DNA of 24,178 nt from a virus, in IMG/VR virus record IMGVR_UViG_3300032053_000507, positions 1 to 24,178 of that record; one strand, written 5' to 3'. This document shows, one piece after another, positions 1 to 16,809 of this stretch. The position numbers and the translations under genes were made by a program. The number at the start of each line of letters is the position of its first letter. The stretch's first letter is position 1. The notes under the pieces are model-generated. The model searched no databases. It was not told where the DNA came from and worked only from the letters and a program-made list of their open reading frames with translations.

Positions 1-1304
1 CCCTGAGTCAATCGAACGGCTGCATCGGCACGAGACACCGCTTCTCGTTGTGCTTCCTTGTCTCCTGCTGAAGCAGCAATTTCCGCAATTGCTTGGTTGT
101 ATGCGCCAAGCCACGTCACAATGTCCAACTGGTTGTGAAGCACGGTGTTCAGGAACATGCCGTGCTTACGCGCCAACGCTTGAGCCTTGCCTAGCCCACT
201 CTGATTTCCTATCAAGTCATCAAGTCGAGCGCGCGTGTCGTTGATGTGGTTGTTCAATCGCTCGTCCATCATCGGCGACGCCTCGGCGATCATGGTTGCT
301 ACTTCATGCGGGCTATCAAGGTACTGTTTCATTGCAGCAGCCAACTGCCCCCTATTTACCTTTGTAAGCGCAACGGCGATTCCACCAACGTCGCCGAGTT
401 GCCTGAGGTTCAAAGACATAAACATCAAACTTGTTCGACCGCGGACAGCAATCCAAAAATCATCGACTGCTTTGAACCGTCCCTGTTCTACAGCCGTGTG
501 CCGCGCAGCACGACCGAGGAACGGAATCAACATTGTCTCGATAGCGGTCGGGTCAATCTTGGAAAGCGCCGAAGCAAACTCTTCGTTACCAATGACTTTC
601 AACACATCCTTGATTGCGGGCTGCACGTGTGCAAACCGAATCACATCATAGATGTGTTTGCCAATCATGCGCAGGTCAAGCGCAAGCGGCCTGTTGTATT
701 CAACGCGAGGCTTCGTAAACCCAAGACCCGTGCTCGGCATCACCTGATTGAAGTTGCCTTCAAGCGCATCCATCTTGGCGTGGCGCTGCGCGTCCTTGAC
801 CATGAACGGATCAGCCTTGGCGGGGACGTATCCGCCTCGATACGTGCCAAACGGCGTGTTGAGAGGCGTTGCTTCAACCTCTTTGAAGTAGAAGCCGTAG
901 AGGTCGCGATGCGACTTCTGCGTCATCGGCTTCAGTTCCTCATTGAGATCCCAAACGCTTTGGACAAAGTCAAAGTCCGCTTTGACCAACTTGCCCTCGG
1001 TCACCATTCGGTTGATGAACTTCATCATCCGAGAAGCGTCTAGGTTTCCTTCGGCGTCCAGTTCGCCCCACTTTCGACCAATCAACAACTTGCGCATGTT
1101 GCTGTCGTTGCCCATGTGAAGCAAAGCGCCGAGCAGTTCGGACTTTCCACCTCCACCATTGCCGACGCCGAACGTGTAATCAAGTTCAGGAGCGGCAATC
1201 CTGCCCTTTGGCAATTCGATTGTTGCGCACAACTCAGCGTACCGCTTCAAGTACTTCGTGCGATCGGCTCGGTACGCATCCATTGCATCAACAATGGGGC
1301 GGAA
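1..1304 (-). other. Helical C-terminal module of the giant protein (incomplete)
   Basis: Residues about 3440-3873. Landmarks are LLGALLHMGNDSNMRKLL, FVQSVWDLNEELKPM, FGTYRGGYVPAKADPF, GFTKPRVEYNRPLALDL, RTSLMFMSLNLRQLGD and DIVTWLGAYNQAIAEI, ending in ADAAVRLTQ at the edge. This is the usual C-terminal region of giant phage polyvalent proteins (pattern 'LN.GN.sN...f...iWd...G.Y.GGY.P...T..G..k.R......Ld...l...D...W..aY....AD..VR.tQ'). In relatives this pattern lies near the end of the chain, so perhaps one to a few hundred residues remain outside the window. All-helical; probably structural. Confidence 0.65.
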
Positions 1305-4300
1305 GATGTATTTGGTGAATGGGCCTCCAGTGTTGCCAAGCCCGTCCATCGCGTCGCACCAATGCTCGACTCGACGCATCATGTTCTTCACGCCGTTAAG
1401 CGTGCGCATCATGCGTTGACGCTGTGTTGGCGCAGACTTATCACCCGCCATCTCGGTAGGCACGCCCAACTCGGTTGTCCTATCAACGAGTTCTCCAACG
1501 ACCTGCGCAAGCGCAACCTTCTTGTCACCAACCATGATCTGCTTGTCTCGGCGCGCGTCGTTCCACAAAGCGGTGACGCCGTCACTCAACGCGCGGAACT
1601 CCGCAACCGTCATTTCTCGGTAGTCCTGCGCTCCTCGTGATGCGCGCGCAATGATCGGCTCAAGACCCGCAAACAGTTCAGGATTGAACGCTTCAATCTG
1701 CTTGACGTAGTCAATTGGCGCTTTGTCCGAACGTCCGAAACCAAATGCCGAAAGGATCGAGCGCGCAGCCATCACCATTTCAATGTCGCGGCTCTTGCCA
1801 ATCTTGGAATCAGCCTTGAAGAACTTTGAGAAGCCTTTGACTGTGTCTCGCACTTCCTCTTGCACTTCACCTGCAACAGCAGCCAACTGATTGTTGAACA
1901 ACTGGTGCTGCTTGGCGCGGCGCGCCGACTCCATCGGGTCAACATCGCCGTACTGTTTCTTGTGAAGGTTGATGCGCTCTTGCGCATTCGCGGCAGCAGT
2001 CTTTGCTGCGTCCTCGCCCAACTTCACCGCAGCGGCTTCGTCTACGCCATTGGCAATCGCCTTGTTGTATGCCCTCGTGCCCGCCGACTTTCCAATGGCT
2101 TCGGGGTTTACCTTTGAGTCGGCGGTGCTGCGCGCTGCACGCGCGGCGCGCGCCTCGGCTACAGCAAACTCATGTGCTTTGACATCCTTAATCTTGCGAT
2201 TGTTGATGTGATCAACCGCAGCCTCTCGGGCAGCGGCAACCATCTCTTTCACAGGCGTCGTTGCCTTTGTGATGAAGTTCAGTTCGGTCGCCACCGCACG
2301 AGCCCGAGCATCGTTGTGCAGCGCAGCATTTGCAGCCTGCTCCATACGCTCGGGATCGTTCAGGTCGCCAAACTCCTTCATCATGCGCTCATCAGTACGC
2401 GCATCAATTTCATCTCCAACCTTCTTTGCCGCCGCAAGAGCCCGAAGCAATTCGTCTCCGCTCTTGAACCCAAACAGTTCAGCAACGAGGTCAGCAGGCA
2501 TTCCGTCCTTTGCAATCATGCCGTACTTGCCGTATCCAAGTTTGGCGGTTTCGTCTCCGAGGACGGCCTTTGCGTCGGCGAGGTTAAGTTTGCCAACGTT
2601 CTCTGCCGAAACCCGCTCGCCACTTTCCGACGTGGTCATTCCGTACTTCAAGAAATCAATTGCCCTGAAGATCGGTTCAGCACGTACTTGTTCCTCAACT
2701 TCGTCACGGACTGCTCTTCGAGTAGCAGCGTTCTTCTTTGCCAGTTCCTTCAGGAACTTGCTCTTCATGTTGCCGACCCACTGGAAGTCGCGCATGCTGC
2801 GCGCGGTCAGTTCATTGACAGCGTCGCGGTGACTTGCGCCGAGCACGGTTTGATACTCAGCCCAAGCCGCGTCAGATACTCCTGCTTCCTCTTGCGTTTG
2901 GAACATTGCCTTCATGTCGCGGGCTTCAGCCGTACTTCGGATTTGCTCCTCAGTCGCAAGCATGCGATCCATGACGCGGCGGACTTCATCGGTAAGCGGA
3001 GGAAGTTCCTCGCCGAACTGCTCCTTGTACAGAGTGTTCTGATGCTTTACGACGTCGGTGTAGACTTGGATGATCCATGACTTGAAGCGATCAAACAACG
3101 GCTGCAACGCAATGGTTGGCGCCTTGCCTTCCGCCACGTAGATTTCAAAGTTGTAGGAGAACTTCTCGTAGTGCTTCCTGCGCGCCTCAAACGAGAGAGT
3201 ATCCCACTCAGCGTTGTCCTTGACGCCAAAGAATGTAAGCAGCGTTTGGAAGTCATCGGCGACCCACTTCGGTGCGCTGCCGTCCAAGATCATCCTGTGG
3301 TATGTCTCGAACAAGTAGTGGCTCGACTCGTGCACCCACGATGTCATGTCCGAATGATGTCCAAGTTTGACCTCGAACGTCTTTGGGTTAAACGAGGCGC
3401 GAGCAGGTTTCTTTGATTCGGCTTGGAACAACGGAAGGCCACCTGCCTCGTTGATCTTTGCAGCCATAGCGTCGGTAATTTCCAACGCAGGAAAAACGGT
3501 GCCGTCGCTCATGGTCAAAGATTCAACTTTGCTTCCGCCCAACCTCTTCGACATTTTGTTGGCAAGGTCTATGACCATGCTGTCGTAAAACTTGCGCATG
3601 CCTGCGCCGCCAACAGGCATGTCCACCGCGTTAACATGTACCTGCGTGTCCACCTCAGCGGCGTCCGCAACCCGAACCAATTCCTTTCCGCCCTCTTTGC
3701 CAAAGGTTTCTGCAATTTCCTTGCTTGACACATTGGCGTCCCATCTGACGTTCTGACCATTTTTTTCTGCGAAGTATGTGTACGTGCCGTCTTCGTTTCT
3801 ATTGATTTTTACGGTATCAATGACTTTCAGCAACGCGTCCTTGTATCGCTGTACGCTTTGCTCCCCCGTAATAAACGTCACATACTTGTAATTGCCCTTG
3901 ACGGCTTCCATAAGCGTATGCTTGAGCGCCAATTTTACGTAACCATCAGTTGATGTAATAAATGGCGCGCGCGGCACCAACAGTTTTGTCTTCTTTCGAC
4001 TGTTTCGAAAATCACGTACTTTTCTATCGGCTTCTACATACTTTTGCAGATCATTCATCTGCGCCTCAGTAAGAGGCGTTAGTCTAGGAAAACGATTTTC
4101 AAAATCCCACTCAGATTCGCTTTGTAGCCATCGAAGCGGGCCGCTTCGATCCCCATCGTCAAAGCCAATGTTGTCAAGTAGCCTAAGTGCGTCAAGCCCA
4201 CCCAAAGTGCTTTCTCTCAGACGGGCGTACAAAATACTTTCTTGACGTAGATATTCGTCTGTCGACACCATGCCTTCTTTTGTTTGAAAGCCTTCTTCTT

Positions 4301-7300
4301 GACCTTTTGCTGATTGATCGGATTGAATTTCTTCAACGTGAAGCGCGGGCTTGCCCTGCTCAGTTACTCGGTCATTCAAACGTGTAGATACAAGAACATT
4401 GTTATCTACGCCTGTTTGACCAAAGTGCTGAATCTTCCACCGAAGTTCATTTTCCTGTTCAGGAATTGGAAACTCACTTGCTTCTTGATCCCGAGCGTTT
4501 TCCAATTTATTTCGCTCAAATCTTAGGTCGTACCGCCTGATTTGTTGATCGTCCATTTCTTGAGGAGTCATACCGCTTGAAACACGTAAATCGAATAATT
4601 CCGCTTCTATTTTTTCGATTGCTGTGTTGTACTTCTTAAATATTTTGGCGCGAGCCGCAAGCGTTTCGGCACTTGCGGGTTTAACTGGCGGACGAAAGTT
4701 AGGAAGCGTCAGCAACACTTCGCGGTAGTTTGTGCCGTTAGGCAAAATCAGGGGTTCGTATTCGTACTGTGACTCAAAATCTTTTCCTTGTCCACCAAGG
4801 TTAACTTCCTTAATGGCAAAGGATTTTTGATACCTTTGCCTTTCAATGTCAACGAATTTTTCTCTCGCTTCTTCTCTAGAAGTTTTTGCGTAGGCTTCCG
4901 CAGATTCGCGAGAAGAAAATATCAAGCCTGATGGCTTACCAAAAACCGTTTCCTTTTCCGATACATACCAATCTCCGTCAAATTCCTCTACGTAACGATC
5001 AAATACACCTTCGCGAACCGCCATAGAGGATTGAAAGTTTTTTTCCAACTTTGCTTCTGCTTTCTCTTTGCTTGAGAAAGTTCCATACAAACCCCCAAAA
5101 TCAGTACCACGTATTTCGTACGTCTTGTATCCCGAATGTACTTTTTCCGACGACAACACTTGAACATCTACGCCCTTGTTTTGAAGGAACGCAGCAAGTT
5201 CTCCTTTCGTAATCTTGCCTTCGCGCTGCATGTCAAGGAAGTCGTAGAAGCCCGTCCAATAGATTTCGTCTTCCTTGACCTCGCCCTTGTTTACCAAGGT
5301 GGCAATGCGATCCTTCCACTGGGCGCCCGTCAACTCCTTAGCGTCAACGGCGTCAACGCTGCGCTTGAGCGCGGAGAAGAACTCAGGCGATACAGGAGCG
5401 GCTTGCTCTAGGAGTTCTCCCTTGTCCCCCCTACCCAACTGTCGTGAGGATTCTCTGCGCGAGGTTTCTCGTGCATTGCTATCTGCTCCCTCAAGTCCTT
5501 CGCGAACGGAGCGTCCTTGCCACGCTTCTCCAACACGCTGTTTAGTAGGCGATTTAGAAACTCCAAGTGGGTCTGCGGTGGCCGTTGGGACATTGCCAAG
5601 AATCTCGTTGTAGTCGCTAGAAAATGCGACCTGTGTTTCATAAAAGACAACTGACGCATAAAGAACATCAACCAGTTCTTTGCTGATCTTATCCTTTAAC
5701 GTGCCAAGTTCTTCTGCTTTGTCTTGCATATGCAAAGCAATTTCTACATCAGACATGCCTGCTATGCGTGCACGTTCCGTTGCGTTGGCAAATTCAGGGA
5801 CGTACTGCATGCGAATGCCGACGGCTGAAGGCATTTGACCGCCGATAGCCTCTACTGTTCTAGCGGGATTAACGGCAAAAGTTACCCCGTCAATTTTGAG
5901 CCCGTTTAAGTATTGAACAACTTCTGCTAGTCGTGCCCCATCAATGGGCTCGCGAAAGTTCAGTTCAATTCCTGCACGATGCTTTTGAGCGTCAATGGGT
6001 TCGTCAGCGCGCACTACGCGAGACAAAAACGTAACTTCTTGACCAGTGGCTTGCGCCGTAGAAACCATTTCGCGCCACGATGCCGTAGTGTCGTAATTTT
6101 CTCTTGTGACAAACTCAATGTCAAACGCGCGTTGAGAGTTGTTTTGGTATCGGCCTTCAGTGGTGTAAACGCGAGAAGCGACAACACGACCACCATCAGA
6201 GTTGATTGCAAGACGAAGCCGCTTGCTTCCTGCTTCCATCTGCGCATCTGATGGGATAACTCGATTGCCCTTTATGTCCATAGTTTCAATAGACAAACCG
6301 CCAACAAATCGGTCAAGCGGGCGCTCTAATTGTTGTAGGTCAATTTTGGCTTGATCTTTATTACGAGACTGCTCTTGTACAAATGTGACCGCCTCTTGAT
6401 AACGATTAATTACGGAAGCAATATTTTCAGGAATGTCTGCTTGACGCTCAAGGTCGGCAATCTCGTCGGCATACAACTTAAATGGTTTGCCAATATTTGG
6501 CCCCTCTCGCCTATTGATTCCAACTAATTCGCCTGCGTTGTTTCGTTGCAATTTATCGACTGCGGCATTTCCAACATCATTCATGTGCTTGTTAGCAGCC
6601 GCCTGCGCTTTGCCGATATCAAGAGCAAGAGCGTCAGTTACCCACTGTGGTTGCCTTGCATCAATAATTTTCCGAAGTTGTTTGATGTTTACGGGGTTGT
6701 CAGATCCCGCAAGACTGGCTTCAAGTTCAAAACTTCCGCCCTCACCCGCAGAGTTAGTCCAATCGTTTCGCGTCCAATGTTCCTTCTCAAGGAACCAAAC
6801 AACTGCTTGCAAGTCATCGTCTTGAATTTCAGAAAGGATTTTGTTTTCTTTCATCGACTCGTCAGAACGAATTCCTTCAGCGGCCCTACTAAACACGTCC
6901 TGTCCAAATCTAAATTGCCCTGCCGTTTCTCCGCTTTGAAGCATTTTTCCTGCAACGCCTGTTTCCGCAGCAACAGGAATCCGAGCGCGACCACTAAGAC
7001 GTTGCAGCAAACGCGCAGCCCACACATCAATTGTTGCCTTACCGCGAAACCCCGCAAGGTTTCCTGAGAAGTTGATTGCCTTTGGCGCAGTTGGGCCGCG
7101 GTCAATATCTGCATTTTCATCTTTAATTACACGCCACAATTCGATGAAAGCGCGAACCAAGTTCTTTCCGTTGAAACCGTACTTTGCGCCTGTTTCTTTA
7201 AGTGGATTTAAATGCGCAGGCAACTCTCGCGCAGTTTTTAACTTCTTTAATTTTTCTTTGTAAATTGGGTCATTTTTGATTTTCGCTTTTGTTGGCGTTT

Positions 7301-10300
7301 TTCCCGTTGTAGCGTTAACCTTTTCAAGTTCTTGGTTGAACCACGACGTCAAATCAAGTTCTAACTTATCAATGTTGTTAGCCCATGATTCCCATTGAGG
7401 CATCAGTTCGTCGTAGTCGCCACGCATTGCACGGCGAATAGCATGAATGGAATTGTCCCAATTGTCACGAACTGGCGTGTTGGGGCTAGTTGCGCCAAGT
7501 AGGTCTGCAAACAAATCCCCAAACGCGCCAAACTCTAAACGAAGGCGTTTGCGCATGGCTCTGTACCAAGACGCTTGTTCGATAATTTTTTGCGCGTTTA
7601 CATCGCCCGCTTGCGCTCGTTTAAAAATCTTGCGGACTTCGTCCACCATTGACTTTGAAAGTTCTTGAACCTGAGCATCGTATAGCGCAGTTCCCTTTAC
7701 AAGACGAACGTCTTTATTTGATCGATCAAACGCATAGGGAATTCCTTTGTACACGTACTCAGGCTTTCCACCGACATTTTTAATTTCACTCAGCGTAAGT
7801 GGTGCCCAACCCGCTTTAGTTGGATGTGCCCGTTTTGCCGCAGTAACCGTTTCGGTCAACTGCTTGCGGTCAAACCCTGACTCATTTACCGCGCTTTCAA
7901 TTGCTGTTTTTTCATCGGCATCCAACACAACCCTTTTTGCAAGTTCGCGCGTTTGCCGCGTCACGTCAAGAGTGTTGCGATTTACTTCAGATGCATTTGG
8001 ATCTACAGCCTCTGGCTGATACAGAAAATTGTCCGACTTAGGGTTAAACCGCTCCGACAACGGAATGACGTTGCCTTGTTCGTCGCGCGTAATCGGATCA
8101 GAGGACTTGATGCGTGAAGGATCGCGAATTGCAATCGTGTCAAGGTTTCCGTCAACACGGGATTCTTGAAGACGTATTGCGTCGTACCTAGACAACACCG
8201 CGTCAACAACCTCACGGTTTTCCCAAACAAGGTAGTTCCCCTCTGTAACAGCCTGCATTTCACTTTCAGTCAATTCCTTTATTGATTGCTTGTCAAAAAC
8301 TTTGAGGATTTGCGGAATGAACTCTCGCCAATTTTCGCGAGGATTAAAAACGTCATTGGCGCGTAAGAATCCATTTATTACTCTGATTCCCATGTCAGAA
8401 TCTGCTTGAGCGACAGTCATTCCGTCAAGCATTGATCGTTCAAGTTCATGCCTTTGATCTCTAATCGCATCTAATTCTTTGTCAGGCATTTTATCCCATG
8501 CCCCGTACTTCTCTAAAAGTTCAGCCCACAGTGGTTTTCCTAATTCGGCAGAAGCAGCCTTTGTCGCGTTAATGCGCGCGCGTATTTCAGGAGATGGTTC
8601 GCGCAACCCTCCGCTGCCGCGCGGCCATTTTTCAGCAAACGCCTTGTTAAAACTAAAGTACGACAGGTCGCTTGAATCGCGGACGCTGCCTTTGAAAGTA
8701 GTAAAGGCTCGCTTTGTTCCATGATAAACAGGGCCAACGTTGTATCCCGCGTTCCGAGCCGCATCGTTCACCATTTGCTGTTGCGTCTCTGTGTCTCCGC
8801 GCTCAACAGCAGCCTTGTATTCGACATCGCGCTTTCGGACAGCGGCTTCTTGATTTAGCGCGCCTTCCTCGTCCGTCTTTGGCGTGCTCTCAATCCGATC
8901 CAGTTCATCGCGTGCGGTGTCAATCAGGCGCTGCGCAGTAGTAGCAAGTTGCTTTGCAATTCCAGGTTGCTTGACGGCGTTGCGCGCCTCGCGAATATTG
9001 CCTGCGCGAAGCATTTCCTGCAAGATTGCAATTTCGATCTGAAGACCAACCGCATCGCCTGCTTTCACTTCACGCTCAACAGCAGCAATTTGATCGCTCA
9101 TCATTTCGTGCATGGAAGCAGTCTTCGACGTAGAGCCCTCGTCTTTAGAAAACTCCTTGTGCGCTTCATTTGCCTCGCGCAGGTTTGCAATCGCTTCAAC
9201 AACGGCATCGTTGCCTTGGCGCGACATTTGACCAACGGGCTCGTTCGCTTGCGCTTCTTCCGCGCGGCGGTTCTCCACCAACATTTCTGCGACGGTGCGA
9301 GGTCGCGACGTAGGATCCGCGGTTGTTGGCACAACTGGTTTGACTTGCGCTGTCGTTTCCGTTGGCGCAGCGACTTCGGCCGCGGGCTCGGAAGGCTTCT
9401 CAGATTCGCGCTCGGCAATGTGGATCGGGTACTTCCGATGGAACTCCTCAGGAGTCATCCGTGTTGCCTTGCCTTCTGATTCGCGCGCTGCTCCCGCAAA
9501 CGCAATCGCTCCCAAAAAGCGGCTTTCAGTACGCGCCTGCTCAGCGGTTCGACCTTCACCAATCAGTTGCGCTTCAATTACATTGGCAACTTTTTCCGCG
9601 CTTTCTCTGTTTGCATCGTCCTTGTTGATTGCCTCATTCACCTCATCGGCAAACTTTTCTACGTTCTCGTTGATTTCGGAAATGAAGGTCTTTAGGAACG
9701 CACTGCGCGTTGCCGATTCTCTCAGCGTTCCAATTTCAGACGACCAAGTCACATCTCCTAGAAGAAGACTGCCAAGCGGAGTCTTCTCAATGCGCGCCTT
9801 GAAATCAGCGGTCTTGACCTTGATGTAGCCGCCGCTTTCCGCCGTTCCGCTTGCAACGTCGTTGAATTGAGCCAATGCCCCAGGAATCACTTCATCAAGT
9901 TTGTCCATCGGGATTTCGAGCGTCGCCATCGCTCGTTGAATCCCTTCTTTGCTGATCAGGATGTCTTCAATAGGCGTGCCCGTCAGCGTGCCTTCCATCA
10001 ATGACTGCGCATCTTCGGGAGAACGCACGGCTAGTTTGGAAGCCTTCTGAAGGATGCTTAAAGTCGCAAATCCTTCTGCTTGCTTTTCGGCAGCACGGAT
10101 CCTAGATCGCTCACGTGCCAACCCCATAATTGGGTTTTGCGCGGATGGCATCAGCACATGCATGCCGACAGCGCCGACCGCCATAAACTTAAAGCCCTGC
10201 ACAGCACTATCAATGATTTCTTCTCTGCCTTCGGGTGACGCCGAGCGCATAGGAAGATTTGATGCGCGCCGCGCGTCTTCATTAGCCGCTTCAAACATCA

Positions 10301-11621
10301 GCACCGTTCCACCAACGTGAGCAAGAATTTTTGCTGTTGTCTTAGCAGACTGCGCACTAATGCGTTTGACGGCTCCTTTCATTGATGCATCTGCAATTGC
10401 TTCTGCAAGTTTTTTAGCCAACAATTTGTCAGCAGCAGCCTTGGATGCCTGTGTTTCGAGGATCGAAGTTGCAATCTTTGGATACAACACCTTCATCAAT
10501 CCCACTTGAATGCCGCCAAGAGTCAAACCCCATGAGGCTGCTTTCCAACGTGCAACGTTAGGATCTACCCCCTCATCAATCATTCGGTTGTACATCATGC
10601 CCGCCCCTTGGCGAACTTGATCCTCAATAAGGGCTGCGGAGAGCCCTGCCTTTGCGCCAAGTTGCGCGCCGACAAGCGTCGTAACTGGGGTTGTCACTTC
10701 CGTCCACGGCAAAGGCGCTGCGCCCGCAAGCCCACCCGTGAGCCCTCCAACAATGGCGCCACCGCCCGCAGCAGGGACTGCTCTAAGAAACTGATATGCC
10801 GTCATCCCAAACATGTTGACAACGGGAAGCCAACCCGTTTCGCTTTCGGGGTCAAACGTTAGTTCCTGCGCGTTTAATTGCGCGTTCCTATTTGCAAACG
10901 TTTGAGGGTCAGCCATTGACCACATTGTGGGATGCAAGGGCGACGGCCCAAACACTTGCGTAGCGCCCGATTCTGCGTGCTCATAAGCCGAAAAGCCATG
11001 CATAAAAGCGGTTGGGATTCCCGTAACTTGATGCGCAAACCAACTGAACCATCCTTCTTGTTCTTTGAGGTTAGCAAGGTCATCGTTCGCCACGCGCGCA
11101 AAGTCAGGGTCAGTGGTTAACTTCTGAGCAAGCGCAGGCGCAGTTACTGGAAGATCCAATTTTGCAACGTCACGACCGTAGAGCCGACGTTGCGTTTGCT
11201 TCATATTCTCAAGCGTAAAGTCGTAACTCGTACCCGAATCGCGCGCTGCCTTCAAAGTCTTTGCGGCGGCGTCGGCGTCTTCGCCCGATGATCGCAATGC
11301 TGATTGGTAAACAGCGCCTCGCCGAATGTCCAACATTTCCTTTGCGGCTTCCGTTGCAGCCGCAGCGTCAAGTTTCTTTGATGGCGACGCAATTGCCATG
11401 GGCTCTTGGAGAGGCGCATTAGCAATTGGCTCTTCGGGCGGTGTTGGTGGAGCAGGTTCTACCTTGTCTTTGCCACGAATAATCTTCACCGTCGTTGCCA
11501 TTGGATTGACGCGCGTTGGCACGAGCGCATCCGTCACCTCAGGCATTCCGTTGCGGTTTACATCAGAACCAATGGTTCGATCCTGTGCATCAAGATTCGT
11601 TTGGAAATCAATTGGGGTCAT
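1..11621 (-). CDS. Giant large polyvalent protein in the gp16 (ejection protein) position; partial, runs off the left edge
   Basis: I read this frame codon by codon from the ATG at 11621 to base 1 without meeting a stop: 3873 codons plus two bases, so the C-terminus lies outside the window. The ATG overlaps the TGA of the gp15-like gene (ATGA, 11618-11621), which indicates translational coupling; the Shine-Dalgarno is weak (AGGGA, about 11 bases upstream). Order of regions: disordered Pro/Ala-rich N-terminus (1-110), hydrophobic Gly/Ala-rich segment (265-335), ADP-ribosyltransferase-like domain (955-1200), ATSPNT domain (1330-1620), a domain ending in GIRMQYVPEF (1865-1950), a helical adaptor (2075-2155), two FSS repeats (2175-2245), the EIQSD/TGEQ module (2395-2735), an HESSH zincin-like module (2735-2850), long charged helices (2850-3440) and a helical C-terminal module (3440 onward). 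Such multi-domain chains are known as phage polyvalent proteins and are thought to be injected with the DNA. Position after gp14- and gp15-like genes makes an ejection-protein role likely. Catalytic activity is inferred from motifs only. Confidence 0.93.
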   Translation of the reverse strand, partial: MTPIDFQTNLDAQDRTIGSDVNRNGMPEVTDALVPTRVNPMATTVKIIRGKDKVEPAPPTPPEEPIANAPLQEPMAIASPSKKLDAAAATEAAKEMLDIRRGAVYQSALRSSGEDADAAAKTLKAARDSGTSYDFTLENMKQTQRRLYGRDVAKLDLPVTAPALAQKLTTDPDFARVANDDLANLKEQEGWFSWFAHQVTGIPTAFMHGFSAYEHAESGATQVFGPSPLHPTMWSMADPQTFANRNAQLNAQELTFDPESETGWLPVVNMFGMTAYQFLRAVPAAGGGAIVGGLTGGLAGAAPLPWTEVTTPVTTLVGAQLGAKAGLSAALIEDQVRQGAGMMYNRMIDEGVDPNVARWKAASWGLTLGGIQVGLMKVLYPKIATSILETQASKAAADKLLAKKLAEAIADASMKGAVKRISAQSAKTTAKILAHVGGTVLMFEAANEDARRASNLPMRSASPEGREEIIDSAVQGFKFMAVGAVGMHVLMPSAQNPIMGLARERSRIRAAEKQAEGFATLSILQKASKLAVRSPEDAQSLMEGTLTGTPIEDILISKEGIQRAMATLEIPMDKLDEVIPGALAQFNDVASGTAESGGYIKVKTADFKARIEKTPLGSLLLGDVTWSSEIGTLRESATRSAFLKTFISEINENVEKFADEVNEAINKDDANRESAEKVANVIEAQLIGEGRTAEQARTESRFLGAIAFAGAARESEGKATRMTPEEFHRKYPIHIAERESEKPSEPAAEVAAPTETTAQVKPVVPTTADPTSRPRTVAEMLVENRRAEEAQANEPVGQMSRQGNDAVVEAIANLREANEAHKEFSKDEGSTSKTASMHEMMSDQIAAVEREVKAGDAVGLQIEIAILQEMLRAGNIREARNAVKQPGIAKQLATTAQRLIDTARDELDRIESTPKTDEEGALNQEAAVRKRDVEYKAAVERGDTETQQQMVNDAARNAGYNVGPVYHGTKRAFTTFKGSVRDSSDLSYFSFNKAFAEKWPRGSGGLREPSPEIRARINATKAASAELGKPLWAELLEKYGAWDKMPDKELDAIRDQRHELERSMLDGMTVAQADSDMGIRVINGFLRANDVFNPRENWREFIPQILKVFDKQSIKELTESEMQAVTEGNYLVWENREVVDAVLSRYDAIRLQESRVDGNLDTIAIRDPSRIKSSDPITRDEQGNVIPLSERFNPKSDNFLYQPEAVDPNASEVNRNTLDVTRQTRELAKRVVLDADEKTAIESAVNESGFDRKQLTETVTAAKRAHPTKAGWAPLTLSEIKNVGGKPEYVYKGIPYAFDRSNKDVRLVKGTALYDAQVQELSKSMVDEVRKIFKRAQAGDVNAQKIIEQASWYRAMRKRLRLEFGAFGDLFADLLGATSPNTPVRDNWDNSIHAIRRAMRGDYDELMPQWESWANNIDKLELDLTSWFNQELEKVNATTGKTPTKAKIKNDPIYKEKLKKLKTARELPAHLNPLKETGAKYGFNGKNLVRAFIELWRVIKDENADIDRGPTAPKAINFSGNLAGFRGKATIDVWAARLLQRLSGRARIPVAAETGVAGKMLQSGETAGQFRFGQDVFSRAAEGIRSDESMKENKILSEIQDDDLQAVVWFLEKEHWTRNDWTNSAGEGGSFELEASLAGSDNPVNIKQLRKIIDARQPQWVTDALALDIGKAQAAANKHMNDVGNAAVDKLQRNNAGELVGINRREGPNIGKPFKLYADEIADLERQADIPENIASVINRYQEAVTFVQEQSRNKDQAKIDLQQLERPLDRFVGGLSIETMDIKGNRVIPSDAQMEAGSKRLRLAINSDGGRVVASRVYTTEGRYQNNSQRAFDIEFVTRENYDTTASWREMVSTAQATGQEVTFLSRVVRADEPIDAQKHRAGIELNFREPIDGARLAEVVQYLNGLKIDGVTFAVNPARTVEAIGGQMPSAVGIRMQYVPEFANATERARIAGMSDVEIALHMQDKAEELGTLKDKISKELVDVLYASVVFYETQVAFSSDYNEILGNVPTATADPLGVSKSPTKQRVGEAWQGRSVREGLEGADSNARETSRRESSRQLGRGDKGELLEQAAPVSPEFFSALKRSVDAVDAKELTGAQWKDRIATLVNKGEVKEDEIYWTGFYDFLDMQREGKITKGELAAFLQNKGVDVQVLSSEKVHSGYKTYEIRGTDFGGLYGTFSSKEKAEAKLEKNFQSSMAVREGVFDRYVEEFDGDWYVSEKETVFGKPSGLIFSSRESAEAYAKTSREEAREKFVDIERQRYQKSFAIKEVNLGGQGKDFESQYEYEPLILPNGTNYREVLLTLPNFRPPVKPASAETLAARAKIFKKYNTAIEKIEAELFDLRVSSGMTPQEMDDQQIRRYDLRFERNKLENARDQEASEFPIPEQENELRWKIQHFGQTGVDNNVLVSTRLNDRVTEQGKPALHVEEIQSDQSAKGQEEGFQTKEGMVSTDEYLRQESILYARLRESTLGGLDALRLLDNIGFDDGDRSGPLRWLQSESEWDFENRFPRLTPLTEAQMNDLQKYVEADRKVRDFRNSRKKTKLLVPRAPFITSTDGYVKLALKHTLMEAVKGNYKYVTFITGEQSVQRYKDALLKVIDTVKINRNEDGTYTYFAEKNGQNVRWDANVSSKEIAETFGKEGGKELVRVADAAEVDTQVHVNAVDMPVGGAGMRKFYDSMVIDLANKMSKRLGGSKVESLTMSDGTVFPALEITDAMAAKINEAGGLPLFQAESKKPARASFNPKTFEVKLGHHSDMTSWVHESSHYLFETYHRMILDGSAPKWVADDFQTLLTFFGVKDNAEWDTLSFEARRKHYEKFSYNFEIYVAEGKAPTIALQPLFDRFKSWIIQVYTDVVKHQNTLYKEQFGEELPPLTDEVRRVMDRMLATEEQIRSTAEARDMKAMFQTQEEAGVSDAAWAEYQTVLGASHRDAVNELTARSMRDFQWVGNMKSKFLKELAKKNAATRRAVRDEVEEQVRAEPIFRAIDFLKYGMTTSESGERVSAENVGKLNLADAKAVLGDETAKLGYGKYGMIAKDGMPADLVAELFGFKSGDELLRALAAAKKVGDEIDARTDERMMKEFGDLNDPERMEQAANAALHNDARARAVATELNFITKATTPVKEMVAAAREAAVDHINNRKIKDVKAHEFAVAEARAARAARSTADSKVNPEAIGKSAGTRAYNKAIANGVDEAAAVKLGEDAAKTAAANAQERINLHKKQYGDVDPMESARRAKQHQLFNNQLAAVAGEVQEEVRDTVKGFSKFFKADSKIGKSRDIEMVMAARSILSAFGFGRSDKAPIDYVKQIEAFNPELFAGLEPIIARASRGAQDYREMTVAEFRALSDGVTALWNDARRDKQIMVGDKKVALAQVVGELVDRTTELGVPTEMAGDKSAPTQRQRMMRTLNGVKNMMRRVEHWCDAMDGLGNTGGPFTKYIFRPIVDAMDAYRADRTKYLKRYAELCATIELPKGRIAAPELDYTFGVGNGGGGKSELLGALLHMGNDSNMRKLLIGRKWGELDAEGNLDASRMMKFINRMVTEGKLVKADFDFVQSVWDLNEELKPMTQKSHRDLYGFYFKEVEATPLNTPFGTYRGGYVPAKADPFMVKDAQRHAKMDALEGNFNQVMPSTGLGFTKPRVEYNRPLALDLRMIGKHIYDVIRFAHVQPAIKDVLKVIGNEEFASALSKIDPTAIETMLIPFLGRAARHTAVEQGRFKAVDDFWIAVRGRTSLMFMSLNLRQLGDVGGIAVALTKVNRGQLAAAMKQYLDSPHEVATMIAEASPMMDERLNNHINDTRARLDDLIGNQSGLGKAQALARKHGMFLNTVLHNQLDIVTWLGAYNQAIAEIAASAGDKEAQREAVSRADAAVRLTQ
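3072..3419 (-). other. Zincin-like metallopeptidase module (HESSH) of the giant protein
   Basis: Residues about 2735-2850. The HExxH motif is HESSH (His2764, Glu2765, His2768) in SDMTSWVHESSHYLFETY. It is preceded by a strand pair (ARASFNPKTFEVKLGHHSD) and followed by HYEKFSYNFEIYVAEGKAP, in which Glu2826 is a plausible third metal ligand, and LFDRFKSWIIQVY. This layout matches the metallopeptidase module that follows 'PLFQ' in phage polyvalent proteins. Known zincins use the two His residues for zinc and Glu as general base. The substrate is unknown: self-processing of the giant chain after injection or cleavage of a host protein are both possible. Confidence 0.75.
3417..4439 (-). other. EIQSD / TGEQ..RY / GMRKFYD module of the giant protein
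   Basis: Residues about 2395-2735. Conserved landmarks in order are HFGQTGVDNNVLVSTRLND, EIQSDQS (Glu2431-Asp2435), APFITSTDGYVKLALKHTL, FITGEQSVQRY (Thr2585-Tyr2593), GGAGMRKFYD (2671-2680) and ITDAMAAKINEAGGLPLFQ. This arrangement is strongly conserved in giant phage and mobile-element proteins (usual form 'H..EpNvl.h.R...EiQSDwHQ...TtGeqqa.RY...GGeGMkgFYD...GqPLFQ'). The biochemical activity is, to my knowledge, not established. The usual Trp-His after EIQSD is replaced by Gln-Ser here (EIQSDQS), a visible deviation. Confidence 0.75.
4881..5100 (-). repeat. Pair of FSS(K/R)E.AEA repeats in the giant protein
   Basis: Two short protein repeats lie in tandem about 50 residues apart: GLYGTFSSKEKAEAKL near residues 2181-2192 and SGLIFSSRESAEAYAK near 2231-2243. 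Each follows an aromatic/charged strand (YKTYEIRGTDFGG and GDWYVSEKETVFG). The pattern 'G...FSS.E.A.A' is typical of small alpha/beta modules that occur as insertions in phage polyvalent proteins. The similarity is at protein level; no long DNA repeat is apparent. Function unknown. Confidence 0.5.
5157..5399 (-). other. Helical adaptor module (SALKRSV...GFYDFL) of the giant protein
   Basis: Residues about 2075-2155. It begins SPEFFSALKRSVDAVDAKEL and continues to EIYWTGFYDFLDMQREGKIT and ELAAFLQNKGVDVQV. This is a very common module of giant phage proteins ('...elewtGl.dwL...vtk.el...l..n.v.v'). It normally stands directly before the EIQSD module, as here. The module is predicted to be all-helical and of unknown function. 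An RS/ES-rich linker (about 2045-2075, with RETSRRESSRQ) separates it from the domain before it. Its local GC content is higher than that of the flanking blocks. Confidence 0.6.
5772..6029 (-). other. Small domain ending GIRMQYVPEF in the giant protein
   Basis: Residues about 1865-1950. The segment contains AGIELNFREPIDGARL, then LKIDGVTFAVNP and finally AVGIRMQYVPEF. This pattern of a strand, a 'GVTF' turn and a closing R.QY.PEF strand recurs in other large phage polyvalent proteins as I remember them, upstream of the helical adaptor and the EIQSD module. Function unknown; an alpha/beta fold is suggested by the alternation of strands and helices. No catalytic motif is recognised. Confidence 0.4.
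6762..7634 (-). other. Uncharacterised domain with ATSPNT and F..NL...ATIDVW motifs in the giant protein
   Basis: Residues about 1330-1620. Visible landmarks are FGDLFADLLGATSPNTPVRDNW (core ATSPNT at 1377-1382), NFSGNLAGFRGKATIDVW (Asp1532) and a late helix DDDLQAVVWFLEKEHW. The order 'SP..., N, K...F..N..G....TID, QA..W' resembles a phage domain family of unknown function (I tentatively think of DUF7178, a helical, possibly DNA-glycosylase-like fold). The name is from memory and uncertain. The paired motifs and invariant-looking Asp suggest an enzyme rather than a spacer. It lies fully inside the AT-richer block. Confidence 0.45.
8022..8759 (-). other. ADP-ribosyltransferase-like domain of the giant protein (ART-PolyVal type)
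   Basis: Residues about 955-1200. The domain opens with GYNVGPVYHGTKRAFTTF (His967 in YHGT), the first conserved strand of the H-Y-E class of ADP-ribosyltransferase-like folds found in phage polyvalent proteins, then SYFSFNKAFAEKW (second strand with aromatic residues). It ends with YDAIRLQES (Glu near 1153) and the characteristic tail IRDPSRIKSSDPITRD...IPLSERFNP. Family knowledge: these domains are usually assigned as mono-ADP-ribosyltransferases that modify host targets early in infection, but few have been assayed. Whether this one has all catalytic residues cannot be decided by eye. The domain lies near the edge of an AT-richer block of the gene. Confidence 0.75.
10691..10829 (-). other. 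Hydrophobic glycine-zipper-like segment of the giant protein
   Basis: Residues about 265-310 form a Gly/Ala-rich hydrophobic run containing GGGAIVGGLTGGLAG, with regularly spaced small residues, followed by a second apolar run (LVGAQLGAKAGLSAAL, about 318-333). The following sequence (GMMYNRMIDEGVDPNVARWK) matches the helical N-terminal region I recognise from other giant phage proteins. Glycine zippers often pack in membranes, so a role in crossing or inserting into the host membrane during ejection is possible. That role is inference; there is no signal peptide, and the segment could equally be buried in a helical core. Confidence 0.45.
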
Positions 11622-13384
11622 CGAGTAAGTTTCCCTGCTTGAATGAGCAAATCAACAACTTCTTTGTCTGTTGGTTCCCGCCCGTAAGCGTTCTTAAGAC
11701 CCTCGCGATACAACTGAACATCGTCAGGATCAAAGAACGGCACGCGTTTGTTGTCCTTATCAACCTCATACCCTTCGAGCATTTGACTTGTTGTTGCGCT
11801 AAACAGCGGCATTTTGTCAGAAGAAGTGCCTAGCCACCAAAAAGTATTGTTGCGCAAATCAAGTTGATTATTGATTCTTCGGTTGATAATGGCGTCTTTT
11901 TCTTGCCAAGTAAGATTCCTGCCAAAGCGCTCCTGCTGCCCATTCACTTCTATCTTGATGTTGTCTTTCATCCTAAGAAGTGATGCCTTGTCCGCATCGC
12001 TTGCGCCCGTTTTGACCCAGTCGTCATATCCCGCACCTATCAAAGCCACGTTGAGGTGTTCCGCATCAAGCGTCGGCTCGCTATTAGTTGGATCTTTTTC
12101 AAGCGCCTTTCGCAACGACACGTAGGTTTCGCGCGTGATTTGATTTCGATGATCTTCCAAATACTGTGGGGTAAGCAGCGATGGATTTACCGCAATATCC
12201 CACATGACGTTGTCGTCGTTCTTAGCGCGTTGACCACGCATGTAAAACTGTCGATCTCTTGGCGCAAGTGCTGCAAAGTCCTTTGCAGGAATGTTGTTTA
12301 CAGATTTGTTTGGGTCTGAAACAATATCGTCTACGCGGTCGCGCAAATCGCGATATGCCTGAGTCTTAAATTCTTCGATCTGCGCATACTCTTGACCCAT
12401 ACGTTGCTTGACAAACCTTCTCGTGTCGGAATCAGTGATGTTGTCATCAGCCCATTGAAACGCTTCAGGCTTTGTTCGTGGATCAGGGAACCCCTCAGCC
12501 GTGGCACCCAACGAGCCGTCCATAATTTGCTCGGTGTATGTTTCGACTTCTACGCGCATTTGGTCAGCAGCCAAGCCCCTGAGCAACTCGTCTGACACCT
12601 TAGAAGAAATGTGATCAAGGTTTTTTTGTTCTTGCACAAACTTGATTGCGGATGAATAGTCCTTGTTTAAAGCCAGTTTCTCCGCAACGCCAATAGACGC
12701 TTGCGTCCATACTGACTGCTCAAGAGCCTTCATTTGCGCAGAGTCTTCAGCAATGCCGTTCAACCGACCAAACGTGTGAACTTCATCAAGAGCAACAATC
12801 ATGTTCTCGTGGAAGAGTCCTTTTGGTCGTCCCGTTTCATCGTCGGTTTCGTATCGACTTTTCCATTCGCCAACCGCAAGGTCGGCAAAGTTGCTTGCTC
12901 GCGTCTTTGCCTCGTTTGAGGCATAGACGGTGATCTCTTTGGTTCGATGATTGTCCGCAGTCGCGGTGTTGTTCAGGTTATGACGGACGACTGCGTTTTG
13001 AATCATCTGTCTTTGCGTGTCGTTGTCCGCAGCGCCAATGGCTGAACTAGCAGCCTCGTTCAGTTGACTGATCGTTTGTCCGTACCTATCTGCTGCGTCT
13101 TTGCCGTTGGTCGCGAAGTATCCGTTCTTGCCCTGCAAGATCGACATAGACGCCTTGAGGTAGTTCGTCTCAATCTCTTTTGATTTTGCTTCGTCAAACT
13201 CATTAAGCAACTTCAGACCAACGCTAGCGGTGGCGCCGCCTACATCCGTAAGGGACTTGCCAAGCGCCGCCGTTTGACGAGCGCCAAAGTCTTGGACTGG
13301 CTGAACGGGCGTCGCTTGATACGGGGCCGCGGCGCCTGCTTCAGTTGCAATTTGCGGGACAAACGACGATGGTACGGTTGGCAT
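11618..13384 (-). CDS. Internal virion protein, T7 gp15-like (588 aa)
   Basis: A mostly helical, polar 588-residue protein without signal peptide. The N-terminus (1-50) is Pro/Ala/Gln-rich and looks disordered; a long helical region follows, with NGYFATNGKDAADRYGQTIS near 95-115, a pattern common in podoviral internal core proteins of the gp15 position. T7 gp15 is 747 residues, so this is shorter. It starts nine bases after the gp14-like stop, preceded by AAGG, and its TGA overlaps the ATG of the giant gene. The gene order gp11-gp12-gp14-gp15-(gp16) is the main reason for the assignment. In T7, gp15 forms part of the inner core and of the channel assembled in the host periplasm during ejection. 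The right half (about 11.9-12.4 kb) is rather AT-rich. Sequence identity to T7 gp15 is not evident by eye. Confidence 0.75.
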   Translation of the reverse strand: MPTVPSSFVPQIATEAGAAAPYQATPVQPVQDFGARQTAALGKSLTDVGGATASVGLKLLNEFDEAKSKEIETNYLKASMSILQGKNGYFATNGKDAADRYGQTISQLNEAASSAIGAADNDTQRQMIQNAVVRHNLNNTATADNHRTKEITVYASNEAKTRASNFADLAVGEWKSRYETDDETGRPKGLFHENMIVALDEVHTFGRLNGIAEDSAQMKALEQSVWTQASIGVAEKLALNKDYSSAIKFVQEQKNLDHISSKVSDELLRGLAADQMRVEVETYTEQIMDGSLGATAEGFPDPRTKPEAFQWADDNITDSDTRRFVKQRMGQEYAQIEEFKTQAYRDLRDRVDDIVSDPNKSVNNIPAKDFAALAPRDRQFYMRGQRAKNDDNVMWDIAVNPSLLTPQYLEDHRNQITRETYVSLRKALEKDPTNSEPTLDAEHLNVALIGAGYDDWVKTGASDADKASLLRMKDNIKIEVNGQQERFGRNLTWQEKDAIINRRINNQLDLRNNTFWWLGTSSDKMPLFSATTSQMLEGYEVDKDNKRVPFFDPDDVQLYREGLKNAYGREPTDKEVVDLLIQAGKLTR

Positions 13385-13393: not shown

Positions 13394-14089
13394 TTATGCG
13401 CGCCTTAATAGGCGTTCTGACATCATGGTTTTGAGATACCAAGATCCGAGATCAGCGGTTCCTCCGAGAAGGCTTGATGCCCCTGCGGAAGTTGCACTGA
13501 GTGACCTTGCACTTGCGCTCATGTTTCGAGACGACATGAACTCCATTGTTGATTGGTTTGCATAATTCGTTCTTTGCGTACGAAGCGCTTGCTCCTCACG
13601 AACCGCGTTGGCGTCCATCGTGAGTTTGTCGATTTCTTTGATGATGTCCATGCTGCCGATTACCTCGGCGGCAGAACCAACTCCGCCCTCAATTCCCCTG
13701 CCTGCAATTGCTGTCTGCGCCGAAGCGCGAGCCTGCCCCGCTGCCATCGTGTATCGCCCAATTGCCTTCTGCGAAGCCTGCCTGCTTGTCTGAGCGGAGA
13801 ACTCAGCGCCTCGCGCGTTGATTGCCGACATTTGCGCCGAGAACTTTAGGTTCTGCGCTTGTGCTCGCAATTCGCTCTTTTGATTCTCTGCTTGGTAGAA
13901 CGAACCAACCGCGGAAGTTGCTGCGCCAAAGATGCCAATGAGAAGCCCTCCCATTGCCATTGATTTGAAATCGGCTGCGGAGGTGTTCGGCGCCATTGGT
14001 GGTGGTGGTGGCGCATTTAATGACGACAAGTTAGCGGAACTAAACTGCGTAATAGAAGGGTAATTCATCCCATAGTAATTGCTTGGCAT
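13394..14089 (-). CDS. Internal virion protein, T7 gp14-like (231 aa)
   Basis: A 231-residue protein, similar in length to T7 gp14 (196 aa). The N-terminal 40 residues are Ser/Asn/Pro-rich with five prolines in a row (27-31). A hydrophobic segment MAMGGLLIGIFGAATSAVG (about 46-64) is the likely membrane-inserting part; an Ala/Gln/Ser-rich coiled-coil region with QAENQKSELRAQAQNLKF follows, then GRGIEGGVGSAAEVIGS. This combination of an early transmembrane-like helix and a long Ala-rich helix is typical of gp14-like proteins, which form the outer-membrane pore during DNA ejection. It begins eight bases after the nozzle gene stop, with a GAGG ribosome site in GATGAGGTAAACAATG. Neighbours on both sides fit the T7-type order. 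Confidence 0.85.
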   Translation of the reverse strand: MPSNYYGMNYPSITQFSSANLSSLNAPPPPPMAPNTSAADFKSMAMGGLLIGIFGAATSAVGSFYQAENQKSELRAQAQNLKFSAQMSAINARGAEFSAQTSRQASQKAIGRYTMAAGQARASAQTAIAGRGIEGGVGSAAEVIGSMDIIKEIDKLTMDANAVREEQALRTQRTNYANQSTMEFMSSRNMSASARSLSATSAGASSLLGGTADLGSWYLKTMMSERLLRRA

Positions 14090-14097: not shown

Positions 14098-16809
14098 TCA
14101 TCCGCCGATAGCGGCTTCTAGCGTCAATCCGACAACAGTGAGTGGGAGCGGATCGCTCTGCCTGATGTAGATTTGCCCGCCGTTTGACCATGACGGGGTC
14201 AGCATTACAAGCACCTCTTCACTCTTTGGCGTTGGCGCTACGCCGTACGTTTCTGTGGTTCGCTGCTTGTATTCAACAAGGTGATCAGCGTCGGGCCCGA
14301 TGAAGATGCCTGACGACTTTTCAACCTTGATCCAAGCCTTGTTGATGTTCTTCATGCGCCCCTGCCCGAATCCCTCGACGTTCATCGTGAGCGGGAGCGT
14401 TTGGATATCACTTTGAAACGGGAGTCCGACCGAGATGTACGAAGCGGCTCGCGGAAGCGAAACAGTTCCTAACACCACAACTTGCTGCGGAACCACAGCG
14501 CCGTCTGCAAGGATGCTGACCGTCTTGCCTTCAAGGTGATTCAGACCAGTGAAGGTGTCACGAGCAAACGTCCACGAACTCGTTGCGGTGTTGCGAAGAG
14601 CAACGGGAATTGTTCCATCAACCTTGACTTGTGCAACAAACGTCGATGTGGTTCCGATGATCCTGCATCGGTACTGATTTTCCGCTGCATCAGAAAGGAC
14701 GATGGCGTCGTTCAAATCGGTTGCTACAGGAAACAGGAACGTAGCAAGGCTAGCGGTTAGGGTCAGCGTGTCGCTCGGCCCCCACGTTGTGCCTCCGCTC
14801 AACGTCATCGTTCCAGTGACCAACGAGCCGTTGTACTTCAGGCTGCTATCGGTAAAGACCAAATTGAGAATGCTGTTTGCTCGACTTCCAAACCGCTCGA
14901 CGTATCGAACGGTCGATCCGTTGACTTCACGACAGACTACGACGTATACAAAGTCCTCAAATCCTTCTGCGACGGCGCAGCAAGATTCAAACGTGCCGTC
15001 AGTGTCGTGCTGATGCCAAGCGCCAATTTCCTCTTCAGGAACATACGAGAGTCCAAGCATCTTGCCATTGCTTGAAATGAACCACAGGATCTGCTGTGGG
15101 CTCTTGGCAAAGCACATGTCCACAATGTCGAGATTGTCGAAGAGATGCGCTGCACGAAGCGATAGGTCGCCTGTGATGAAGCCTTGTGATTGCCACGAGT
15201 AGCCAAGTTCGCGCACGTGCCCGCCGCGGGAAGAACAGTAAACAACGGTGTTGTTTACGATCTGAGGCTGCACCGTGTTTGCTCCGACGTACGACTGAGG
15301 TCGAACCGAGATAGTCGATGGCGTGATGACGTCGCTGCTTGATGGGCTCACGCGCCACTCCGCAGCGTTTGTCAGCAGCAGCAACTGCGTCAAAGGCACA
15401 ACGTGCCGAATCGTGTTCGATTCGCGAGCCGACACACGAATCGCCACGCGATCAATGTCTGTCGTTGGAATCGAGTACGACATGTCCGATTCAGTTCCCG
15501 ACCGAGTCAGCCACAGATACTGCGGGTCGTTGTCTGTTCCTGCAAACACGCGGCGCTGCTCGTAGTACGAAACAGCCCCAGGATAGTTCCCCGTGGAACT
15601 AAACACCGTGTCGTAGATCGGAGGCGTGATTCCCATGTCGGGCGCAATGTTGTTGTCAGTAAACGAAAGCCCGTCAGTCTGACCGATGTACCCGTACAAA
15701 CCGCTCTGCCGCTTGTAGACGTTGTACCGTTGCGCGCCCGTCGTTCCCCAACTGATTGTGTTGTACGCGCCGTTGATGTACAGGTTGTTGATGACGTTAA
15801 CTGGAACACTTGCTGCGCTTTCTGTACCGCCTGTTGATACCGATGTGACAACGTAATAGTTGTTGATGTCGGAGATACGACTTCCAAATTGGACTCTGCC
15901 GCTGCTTCCTGTGTAGTTAAGAAGGTTTGCATACGTAACAATTGCTCCCGCGTCGTACGTCTTTAAAGAAAACGTACCTGCACCAATGGTGTTAATGACG
16001 TAGAAACCATCAGGAAACACTGCGCCTGAACTTGCTAAACATCCATTAACGTAAACACTGTCGCCAACAACAAATTGATGCGTGGTACTTGCCGTGATAG
16101 TAAATGTTAAAGGCGGGCCGACTGCTATTGTTGCGATCGTTAACTGTTCGCCGCGAGTTGCGGTAATGGATGGTGCAGCAGGCGGGCTAACCGAAGGCAA
16201 AAAGGACACATCGGTAAACGCCCAACGGCTTGATGAATACCGTCGCAATTCAGCAGGCTTGTGAGCGGGGTGCACAAGCGTGATGATGTCCCCGCTCTGC
16301 ACATAGTGAACGTCAAACAATTCGGTAGCGGTGTACGTAGTTGGAATCTCAAAGACAGTGCTTGTTTGCAGATACCAATTTGTTGGGTCAACGTTTGGGG
16401 CTGCGGTTACTGGAGAAATACTAGTCTTGCAGTAGTAGGTGTTCCCTCCATACGTGTACATGTTTCCGACAAGGCTGTTTGTAACAGTCAACACTACTGC
16501 GCCTGCTGTAGTCGTGTTCAGCAGCGTCTTTGCGTTTGTATGGAACCGAATGTAGTTCACACCAAGTTCGATGACCATTGTCTGACTCATCGAGTACGTG
16601 AACGGGATTAGGCGCGCGCGTACCGAACCCTTTGTTTCTCGTACGAAGACAGTGCCTGTTCGATTCTGCGCGGGCCCTTGCGGCATCGCAATAAAGTTTC
16701 GCAGGTAAGCAGCGCCAGTTGAATAGCGGTTGTCGTCGATGCGCCCGTACATGTTCGGCGAAATCTCGCCGCCTGAGAACGAACGATGGTAGTCGCGGGT
16801 ACTCGCCAT
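14098..16809 (-). CDS. Tail tubular protein B, T7 gp12-like nozzle (903 aa)
   Basis: A 903-residue beta-rich protein, longer than T7 gp12 (794 aa). The start is diagnostic: RDYHRSFSGGEISPNMYGR, then AAYLRNFIAMPQGPAQNRTG and RLIPFTYSMSQTMVIELG, the signature of the podoviral tail nozzle. Later landmarks are GAVSYYEQRRVFAGTDNDPQ, SRGGHVRELGYSWQSQGFITG and a C-terminus TPSWSNGGQIYIRQSDPLPL. The protein forms the hexameric distal tube below gp11. Residues about 236-305 carry an extra module (TTHQFVVGDSVYVNG...GFYVINTIGAGTFSLKT) like the HGL modules of the 453-residue protein upstream. The DNA encoding it is locally AT-richer (24 of 60 bases GC at 15961-16020 against 37 of 60 at 15181-15240). The gene starts three bases after the tail tubular A stop. 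Confidence 0.93.
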   Translation of the reverse strand: MASTRDYHRSFSGGEISPNMYGRIDDNRYSTGAAYLRNFIAMPQGPAQNRTGTVFVRETKGSVRARLIPFTYSMSQTMVIELGVNYIRFHTNAKTLLNTTTAGAVVLTVTNSLVGNMYTYGGNTYYCKTSISPVTAAPNVDPTNWYLQTSTVFEIPTTYTATELFDVHYVQSGDIITLVHPAHKPAELRRYSSSRWAFTDVSFLPSVSPPAAPSITATRGEQLTIATIAVGPPLTFTITASTTHQFVVGDSVYVNGCLASSGAVFPDGFYVINTIGAGTFSLKTYDAGAIVTYANLLNYTGSSGRVQFGSRISDINNYYVVTSVSTGGTESAASVPVNVINNLYINGAYNTISWGTTGAQRYNVYKRQSGLYGYIGQTDGLSFTDNNIAPDMGITPPIYDTVFSSTGNYPGAVSYYEQRRVFAGTDNDPQYLWLTRSGTESDMSYSIPTTDIDRVAIRVSARESNTIRHVVPLTQLLLLTNAAEWRVSPSSSDVITPSTISVRPQSYVGANTVQPQIVNNTVVYCSSRGGHVRELGYSWQSQGFITGDLSLRAAHLFDNLDIVDMCFAKSPQQILWFISSNGKMLGLSYVPEEEIGAWHQHDTDGTFESCCAVAEGFEDFVYVVVCREVNGSTVRYVERFGSRANSILNLVFTDSSLKYNGSLVTGTMTLSGGTTWGPSDTLTLTASLATFLFPVATDLNDAIVLSDAAENQYRCRIIGTTSTFVAQVKVDGTIPVALRNTATSSWTFARDTFTGLNHLEGKTVSILADGAVVPQQVVVLGTVSLPRAASYISVGLPFQSDIQTLPLTMNVEGFGQGRMKNINKAWIKVEKSSGIFIGPDADHLVEYKQRTTETYGVAPTPKSEEVLVMLTPSWSNGGQIYIRQSDPLPLTVVGLTLEAAIGG

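Follow-up and report, generated by a model that had tools for sequence, protein, structure and literature searches.

What does an unbroken reading frame of 3,873 codons do in the ejection-protein place of a phage genome? The question is raised by the 24,178-base virus contig of a freshwater-type phage that was analysed here over its whole length (the window). The first-pass annotation of this DNA had proposed that the frame encodes an injected takeover toolkit, a role that the protein may indeed have. We consider it likely, at a probability of about 0.7, that the phage is a podovirus of the BPP-1 type and that the giant frame encodes its ejection protein in the gp16 position, in which a fixed delivery chassis encloses an exchangeable cargo bay.

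Phage lineage and gene neighbourhood

On sequence grounds the window phage is assigned to the BPP-1/epsilon15-type podoviruses, as its portal protein is 63% identical to bbp21 of BPP-1 and 46% identical to that of epsilon15. The giant gene is placed among the late virion genes, which are the following.

22396..24114 (-), portal (head-tail connector) protein, 63% identity to BPP-1 bbp21
18299..19330 (-), major capsid protein of the epsilon15 gp7/BPP-1 type, Pfam GP7 E 5.5e-126
16813..17493 (-), tail protein in the adaptor position, 226 aa, phrog_394
14098..16809 (-), tail protein in the nozzle position, 903 aa, phrog_376 E 4e-195
13394..14089 (-), gp14-like internal virion protein, 231 aa, Pfam T7_gp14 and phrog_418
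11618..13384 (-), gp15-like internal virion protein, 588 aa, from Pfam and PHROG scans
11618..11621 (-), ATGA overlap of the gp15-like and giant genes, predicted translational coupling
3..11621 (-), giant polyvalent, putative ejection-type protein of the Bbp10/phrog_9880 family, phrog_9880 E 1.7e-262

The gp14-like gene reaches 27.3 bits with Pfam T7_gp14 (cut-off 27) and also matches a PHROG named internal virion protein. The gp15-like gene gives a weak match to phrog_10475 (endolysin), of the phage internal-protein type, and no peptidoglycan-cutting domain is recognised in its 588-aa product. Its counterparts are annotated as a transglycosylase (BPP-1 bbp11), a lysozyme (ctQRb9), and a peptidase M23 (ctEw122). 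The order of gp14-like, gp15-like, and giant gene is kept in the annotated relatives (bbp10, DC33, ctQRb9, and ctEw122), and in 59 of 67 relatives an upstream gene of 480 to 890 aa ends within about 40 nt of the start of the giant gene. A 4-nt overlap of the ATGA type is also present between bbp11 and bbp10 of BPP-1 and in several relatives. The ejection-protein place proposed in the first-pass annotation is thereby confirmed, and so is the order of a T7-type cassette, but the phage itself is not of the T7 type. It is because of this gene position that we infer packaging and injection of the giant protein.

The same neighbourhood bears on the names under which related genes have been deposited. 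Bbp10-type records carry names such as lysin or lysis protein, as in the annotations of Caulobacter, Nostoc, and Microcystis phages and in the OANV1 paper, where a 2,986-aa homologue is named a putative lysis protein only (PMC9239159). According to these records the giant protein would be a cell-wall lysin or lysis protein, which we regard as very unlikely. Pfam and NCBIfam find no peptidoglycan-hydrolase domain in it, the annotated relatives have separate endolysin genes, and the giant gene sits in the internal-protein cassette beside the gp14- and gp15-like genes. The record names crystallin beta/gamma and lysin are both without Pfam or NCBIfam backing in the window protein.

Some further features of these genomes were observed. 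A 453-aa gene (20330..21691), rich in Thr and Gly, lies between a scaffold/protease-type gene and the portal gene, and in DC33 a gene of 1,533 nt (5132..6664) occupies the same place. On the strand opposite the portal gene there is a 509-aa open frame (22465..23994, +), probably a shadow of codon bias. The record of DC33 (L006 among our L-numbered relatives; PQ492659, a phage of Limnohabitans sp. DCL3) has Inoviridae in its taxonomy line, which looks wrong, as its genes for portal, capsid, and ejection proteins are those of a tailed phage of the BPP-1 type.

The giant frame and its constant parts

The frame starts with ATG at position 11621 on the minus strand, runs through 3,873 stop-free codons, and is cut at its 3' end by the contig edge. 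A random frame of that length would survive with a chance of about (61/64)^3873, or e^-186. Compared with L011 (the same contig as L004), dN/dS is 0.04 to 0.07 in the C-terminal core described below, 0.35 in the N-terminal core, and 0.28 to 0.66 in the flanks of the bay. We conclude from these ratios that the giant frame is under purifying selection, and together with the survival estimate they exclude a chance open frame. The giant gene is also carried by L002, L003, and L004, where the C-terminal side is 69 to 98% identical to that of the window, and in L002, L003, and L004/L011 the stop lies 227 residues past the last residue of the window protein, which is therefore predicted to have about 4,100 aa. 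Thus, the unbroken frame, the ATGA overlap, and the chain of about 4000 residues described in the first-pass annotation are all supported, and the stop codon that it sought is found in close relatives. Moreover, L110 encodes a complete homologue of 4,115 aa on a separate 43.6-kb contig, and an independent homologue of this size means that the giant frame is no assembly artefact.

Other homologues have 3,647 aa (L050), 3,571 aa (L011), 3,209 aa (ctQRb9), 3,125 aa (DC33), 2,792 aa (ctEw122), and 2,052 aa (BPP-1 bbp10). The C-terminal half of the window protein matches phrog_9880 and is 29 to 98% identical to its relatives, and the window gene is the counterpart of BPP-1 bbp10. The contigs L061 and L104 have the giant gene as two frames, with the break inside the C-terminal core or close to it, through either an assembly error or a true split.

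We compared 72 homologues in which both ends of the bay are visible. They come from virus contigs, from prophage regions (Bartonella, Magnetospirillum, Propionivibrio, and others), and from four GenBank phage records. In the alignments these giant proteins consist of a near-constant frame, made of an N-core and a C-core, around a variable bay. In the window protein the parts are as follows.

11040..11303 (-), LPD22 domain, aa 107-194, E 9.8e-10, 39 bits (cut-off 28.6)
9396..10604 (-), N-core of the putative chassis, aa 340-742, from a profile
3408..9395 (-), putative cargo bay, aa 743-2738, 1,996 aa, set by the chassis boundaries
3..3407 (-), C-core of the putative chassis, from aa 2739 on, complete length about 1,360 aa, from alignments and a model
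3318..3332 (-), HESSH zinc-peptidase motif, aa 2764-2768, which opens the C-core, from an alignment

The N-core profile, built on window residues 340-742, matches 61 of 62 complete homologues. Across the 72 relatives the N-core ends at a median residue of 637 (s.d. 57), and the C-core has a median length of 1,319 aa. The C-core of the window is mostly helical, and no solved structure matches its model (pLDDT 75, pTM 0.53); searches of the PDB by sequence and by fold were likewise without meaningful matches. A structural search with the same model found many phage giants named for cargo-type domains such as MuF-C, nuclease, N-acetyltransferase, or ART-PolyVal. One of them, A0A6J5MJA7 (uncultured phage), has 97% identity with the window C-core.

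The C-cores of the relatives start just ahead of an HE[ST]xH motif, and H25, E26, and H29, with E80 and E87 downstream (alignment numbering), are invariant in 37 C-cores. This agrees with the zincin-like module that had been noticed earlier. The layout of HExxH and Glu residues is that described for polyvalent-protein zincins, which have been proposed to act in self-processing or host cleavage (PMC5512222). Here, the most likely role of the metallopeptidase would be to trim or release cargo, during or after entry.

The bay and its cargo

The bay ranges in size from 12 to 2,338 aa in the 72 relatives. It has 12 aa in a Bartonella prophage, 169 aa in BPP-1, 1,996 aa in the window, which is the second longest, and 2,338 aa in L104, whose giant frame is interrupted close to the C-core end. 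The segments of the window bay are given below.

8127..8729 (-), ADP-ribosyltransferase-like domain (ART-PolyVal), aa 965-1165, from Pfam and an alignment with strong members
5439..8849 (-), swapped segment, aa 925-2061, from the comparison with L004/L011
5622..8012 (-), module B, portable, aa 1204-2000 (about 800 residues), from sequence comparison
7005..7196 (-), DUF7178-like core in module B, aa 1476-1539, FSGNLAGFRGKATIDVWAAR motif, from a profile match
3408..5438 (-), modules C/D, aa 2062-2738, present in L011, with parts in L036, L042, L046, and L050

In L004/L011 an unrelated segment of 604 aa replaces aa 925-2061 of the window protein, with flanks that are 77 to 98% identical. The C-cores of the window and L011 are 98.4% identical, and 43 to 59% of their bays is in common. 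The common part is 11 to 15% for L045 and L046 (C-cores 94% identical) and 21 to 25% for L065 and L070 (93.5%), and the bays of L036 and L068 have nothing in common at a C-core identity of 98.1%. The converse is seen between the window and L110, where a stretch of the bay is 61% identical and the C-cores are only 27% alike. Sliding pieces of the window bay match different sets of relatives at different places, and the GC content at third codon positions (GC3) is 0.60 to 0.68 over aa 2601-3800, 0.40 to 0.45 over aa 1001-2000, and 0.38 to 0.41 over aa 2201-2600. All of this indicates that bay cargo is exchanged between phages.

Since the contig comes from a metagenome and its nearest relatives lack aa 925-2061, the middle of the frame could in principle be an assembly chimera of two related phages, in frame by luck. 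The chance of this seems very small indeed. The order of N-core, module B, and C-core recurs in the independent relatives L065, L068, L104, and L110, including the 4,115-aa frame, equal swaps are found in other phage pairs, and neither the 1,137 codons nor the two junctions interrupt the frame.

The domain content was scanned in 33 distinct bays. ART-PolyVal is matched in 13 of them and DUF7178 in 10; LPD3 is found three times, PBECR5 and MuF_C twice each, and PBECR1, PBECR3, DUF3293, and RelA_SpoT once each. Strong matches include E 1.5e-29 for ART-PolyVal, 1.6e-23 for DUF7178, and 5e-17 for PBECR5. Effector-type domains, the PBECR nucleases among them, are a frequent bay content. When the 37 C-cores were put through the same Pfam scan as a control, no family was found in more than one member. 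The Pfam scan of the L110 bay gave no recognisable domain, and the same holds for some other bays.

In the window the ART-PolyVal match is weak, at 22.1 bits below the Pfam cut-off of 31.2, but the candidate residues H967, Y988, and D1161 are in register with the published H-Y-D site when strong ART-PolyVal members are aligned, which favours the ADP-ribosyltransferase-like module named in the first-pass annotation. Module B, besides recurring with the chassis in L065, L068, L104, and L110, is found chassis-free in L105 to L108. The module B gene of L105 directly follows tail and internal-protein-sized genes. On the 58-kb contig L106 (3922-8415) module B forms the end of a protein of 1,497 aa that begins with a stretch rich in Gln and Gly, outside a Bbp10-type chassis. 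The DUF7178 match of the window is weak alone and below the cut-off; nine of ten relatives match. Against 50,697 isolate phage records module B gave no match, its PDB profile search gave chance matches only, and its fold search was not significant (best E 0.003 to 0.03, with a low TM-score). The candidate reading of DUF7178 as a helix-hairpin-helix DNA glycosylase is without support in that fold search. Modules C/D have a distant match to a Dolichospermum phage. The window chain is thus composed of several unlike domains, with LPD22 above its cut-off, an invariant zincin motif, and ART and DUF7178 each below cut-off. Some bays are free of recognised domains and module B gave no significant fold match, so the label effector should not be given to every cargo.

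These results have to be weighed against the reading that the giant protein is purely structural, a core or tape-like ejection protein whose middle is a fast-evolving filler of length or mass and whose enzyme-like domains are relics. This would fit with the strongest constraint being on the C-core (dN/dS 0.04 to 0.07) and a looser one on the bay flanks (0.28 to 0.66), with the weak ART of the window, and with the bays that lack a recognised domain. Nevertheless, we consider it unlikely, because several bays have strong enzyme-type domains (ART-PolyVal, PBECR5, and DUF7178), modules are up to 61% identical between phages with C-cores only 27% alike, and the near-bayless natural member of the Bartonella prophage indicates that length is not required.

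For the preferred reading, a delivery chassis with a cargo bay, we propose the following course of events. The giant chain would be produced late, share the head with the gp14- and gp15-like proteins, and be the first to leave the particle on infection. The N- and C-cores may then thread through and anchor in an envelope channel, as has been proposed for the virion RNA polymerase (vRNAP) of DEV and N4. The anchored chassis would put the bay into the cytoplasm, where the cargo could act on the host or on host defences ahead of phage gene expression, and the metallopeptidase would trim or free the cargo, either on the way in or afterwards.

A constant frame with a bay makes giant polyvalent proteins readable, and it suggests a design of packing plus usefulness that was previously not clear. 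Anything found in the bays of the Bbp10-type family becomes a candidate injected anti-host or anti-defence activity, and near-identical phage pairs with different cargo are ready-made natural experiments.

Comparison with known systems

The window protein resembles T7 gp16 and phiKMV gp37 in that its gene likewise comes after gp14 and gp15. It differs from them in having no lysozyme domain and in being three times longer. Kinship with T7 gp16, in whose place the first-pass annotation had put the frame, is not supported, as hhalign comparisons of the T7, SP6, and phiKMV gp16 proteins with both chassis cores gave at most 0.9%, which is no match, and Pfam and NCBIfam find no lysozyme or transglycosylase domain in the giant protein. 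Membership of the T7 gp16 family was therefore rejected. The zincin of the T7-gp16-type protein gp37 of phiKMV (L204:4567-8580), with the motif HEAVH, and that of N4-type virion RNA polymerases match each other at about 97% in a profile comparison (P 2.9e-10).

The Bbp10/phrog_9880 relatives (DC33, ctQRb9, ctEw122, and gp16 of OANV1) have the giant gene in the same place, with the same N-core, zincin-led C-core, and gp14/gp15-like neighbours. The bay of Bbp10 itself has 169 aa only, against the 1,996 aa of cargo in the window. The window protein is not isolated: in a family that has the frame in common and exchanges its bays, it ranks among the largest. Virion proteomics of Bbp10 homologues was not found in the literature searched.

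Polyvalent proteins were described as single late-gene-encoded chains with several unlike domains (ART, zincin, and LPD), for which packaging and injection were proposed (Iyer 2017, PMC5512222), and the window chain is also multi-domain and late-gene-encoded. The words Bordetella, BPP-1, and ejection never occur in that text. What our alignments add to it is the fixed chassis, whose two cores enclose a swap bay.

A parallel outside the family may be the virion RNA polymerase of N4-type phages (Schitoviridae). Pseudomonas phage DEV has such a polymerase of 3,398 aa, one of three ejection proteins equivalent to gp14, gp15, and gp16, with the gp16 role (PMC10925440), and in the N4 protein about 1,000 N-terminal residues precede the polymerase, which is followed by a C-terminal region that has an HExxH domain and is required for packaging (PMC5512222). 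As in the window protein, the product of this large ejection-cassette gene, of about 3,400 aa, has an N-terminal part, a cargo, and an HExxH-led C-terminal part; the difference is that the cargo is an RNA polymerase, and none is recognised in the window protein by Pfam, NCBIfam, and PHROGs scans. For this reason, membership of the window protein in the N4-type polymerases was rejected. With 52 distinct N4-type virion RNA polymerases collected, the distance from HExxH to the C-terminus is 1,059 to 1,340 aa, compared with about 1,294 aa in the window protein. In profile comparisons, for which 31 reversed controls reached a maximum of 4.7%, the window N-core matches the N-terminal region of these polymerases at 90% (P 1.6e-6) and in the matching position, and the zincin of the C-core matches theirs at 73% (P 3e-5). 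The N-core profile also finds single polymerases at E 5.9e-6 and 5.3e-5. The whole C-core reaches 8 to 15% only, with no clear rise beyond the zincin, and module B against the middle of the polymerases gives 0.3%. It is conceivable, at slightly less than even odds, that the giants of the Bbp10 type and the virion RNA polymerases of the N4 type are built on one chassis, with an N-core and a zincin-led C-core encoded by the large gene for ejection. The polymerase would then be one of many exchangeable cargoes, as other podovirus bays would carry ADP-ribosyltransferases, RNases, and further modules. If this link is true, one mechanism would bring very long chains across the envelope in two phage groups that have so far been treated apart.
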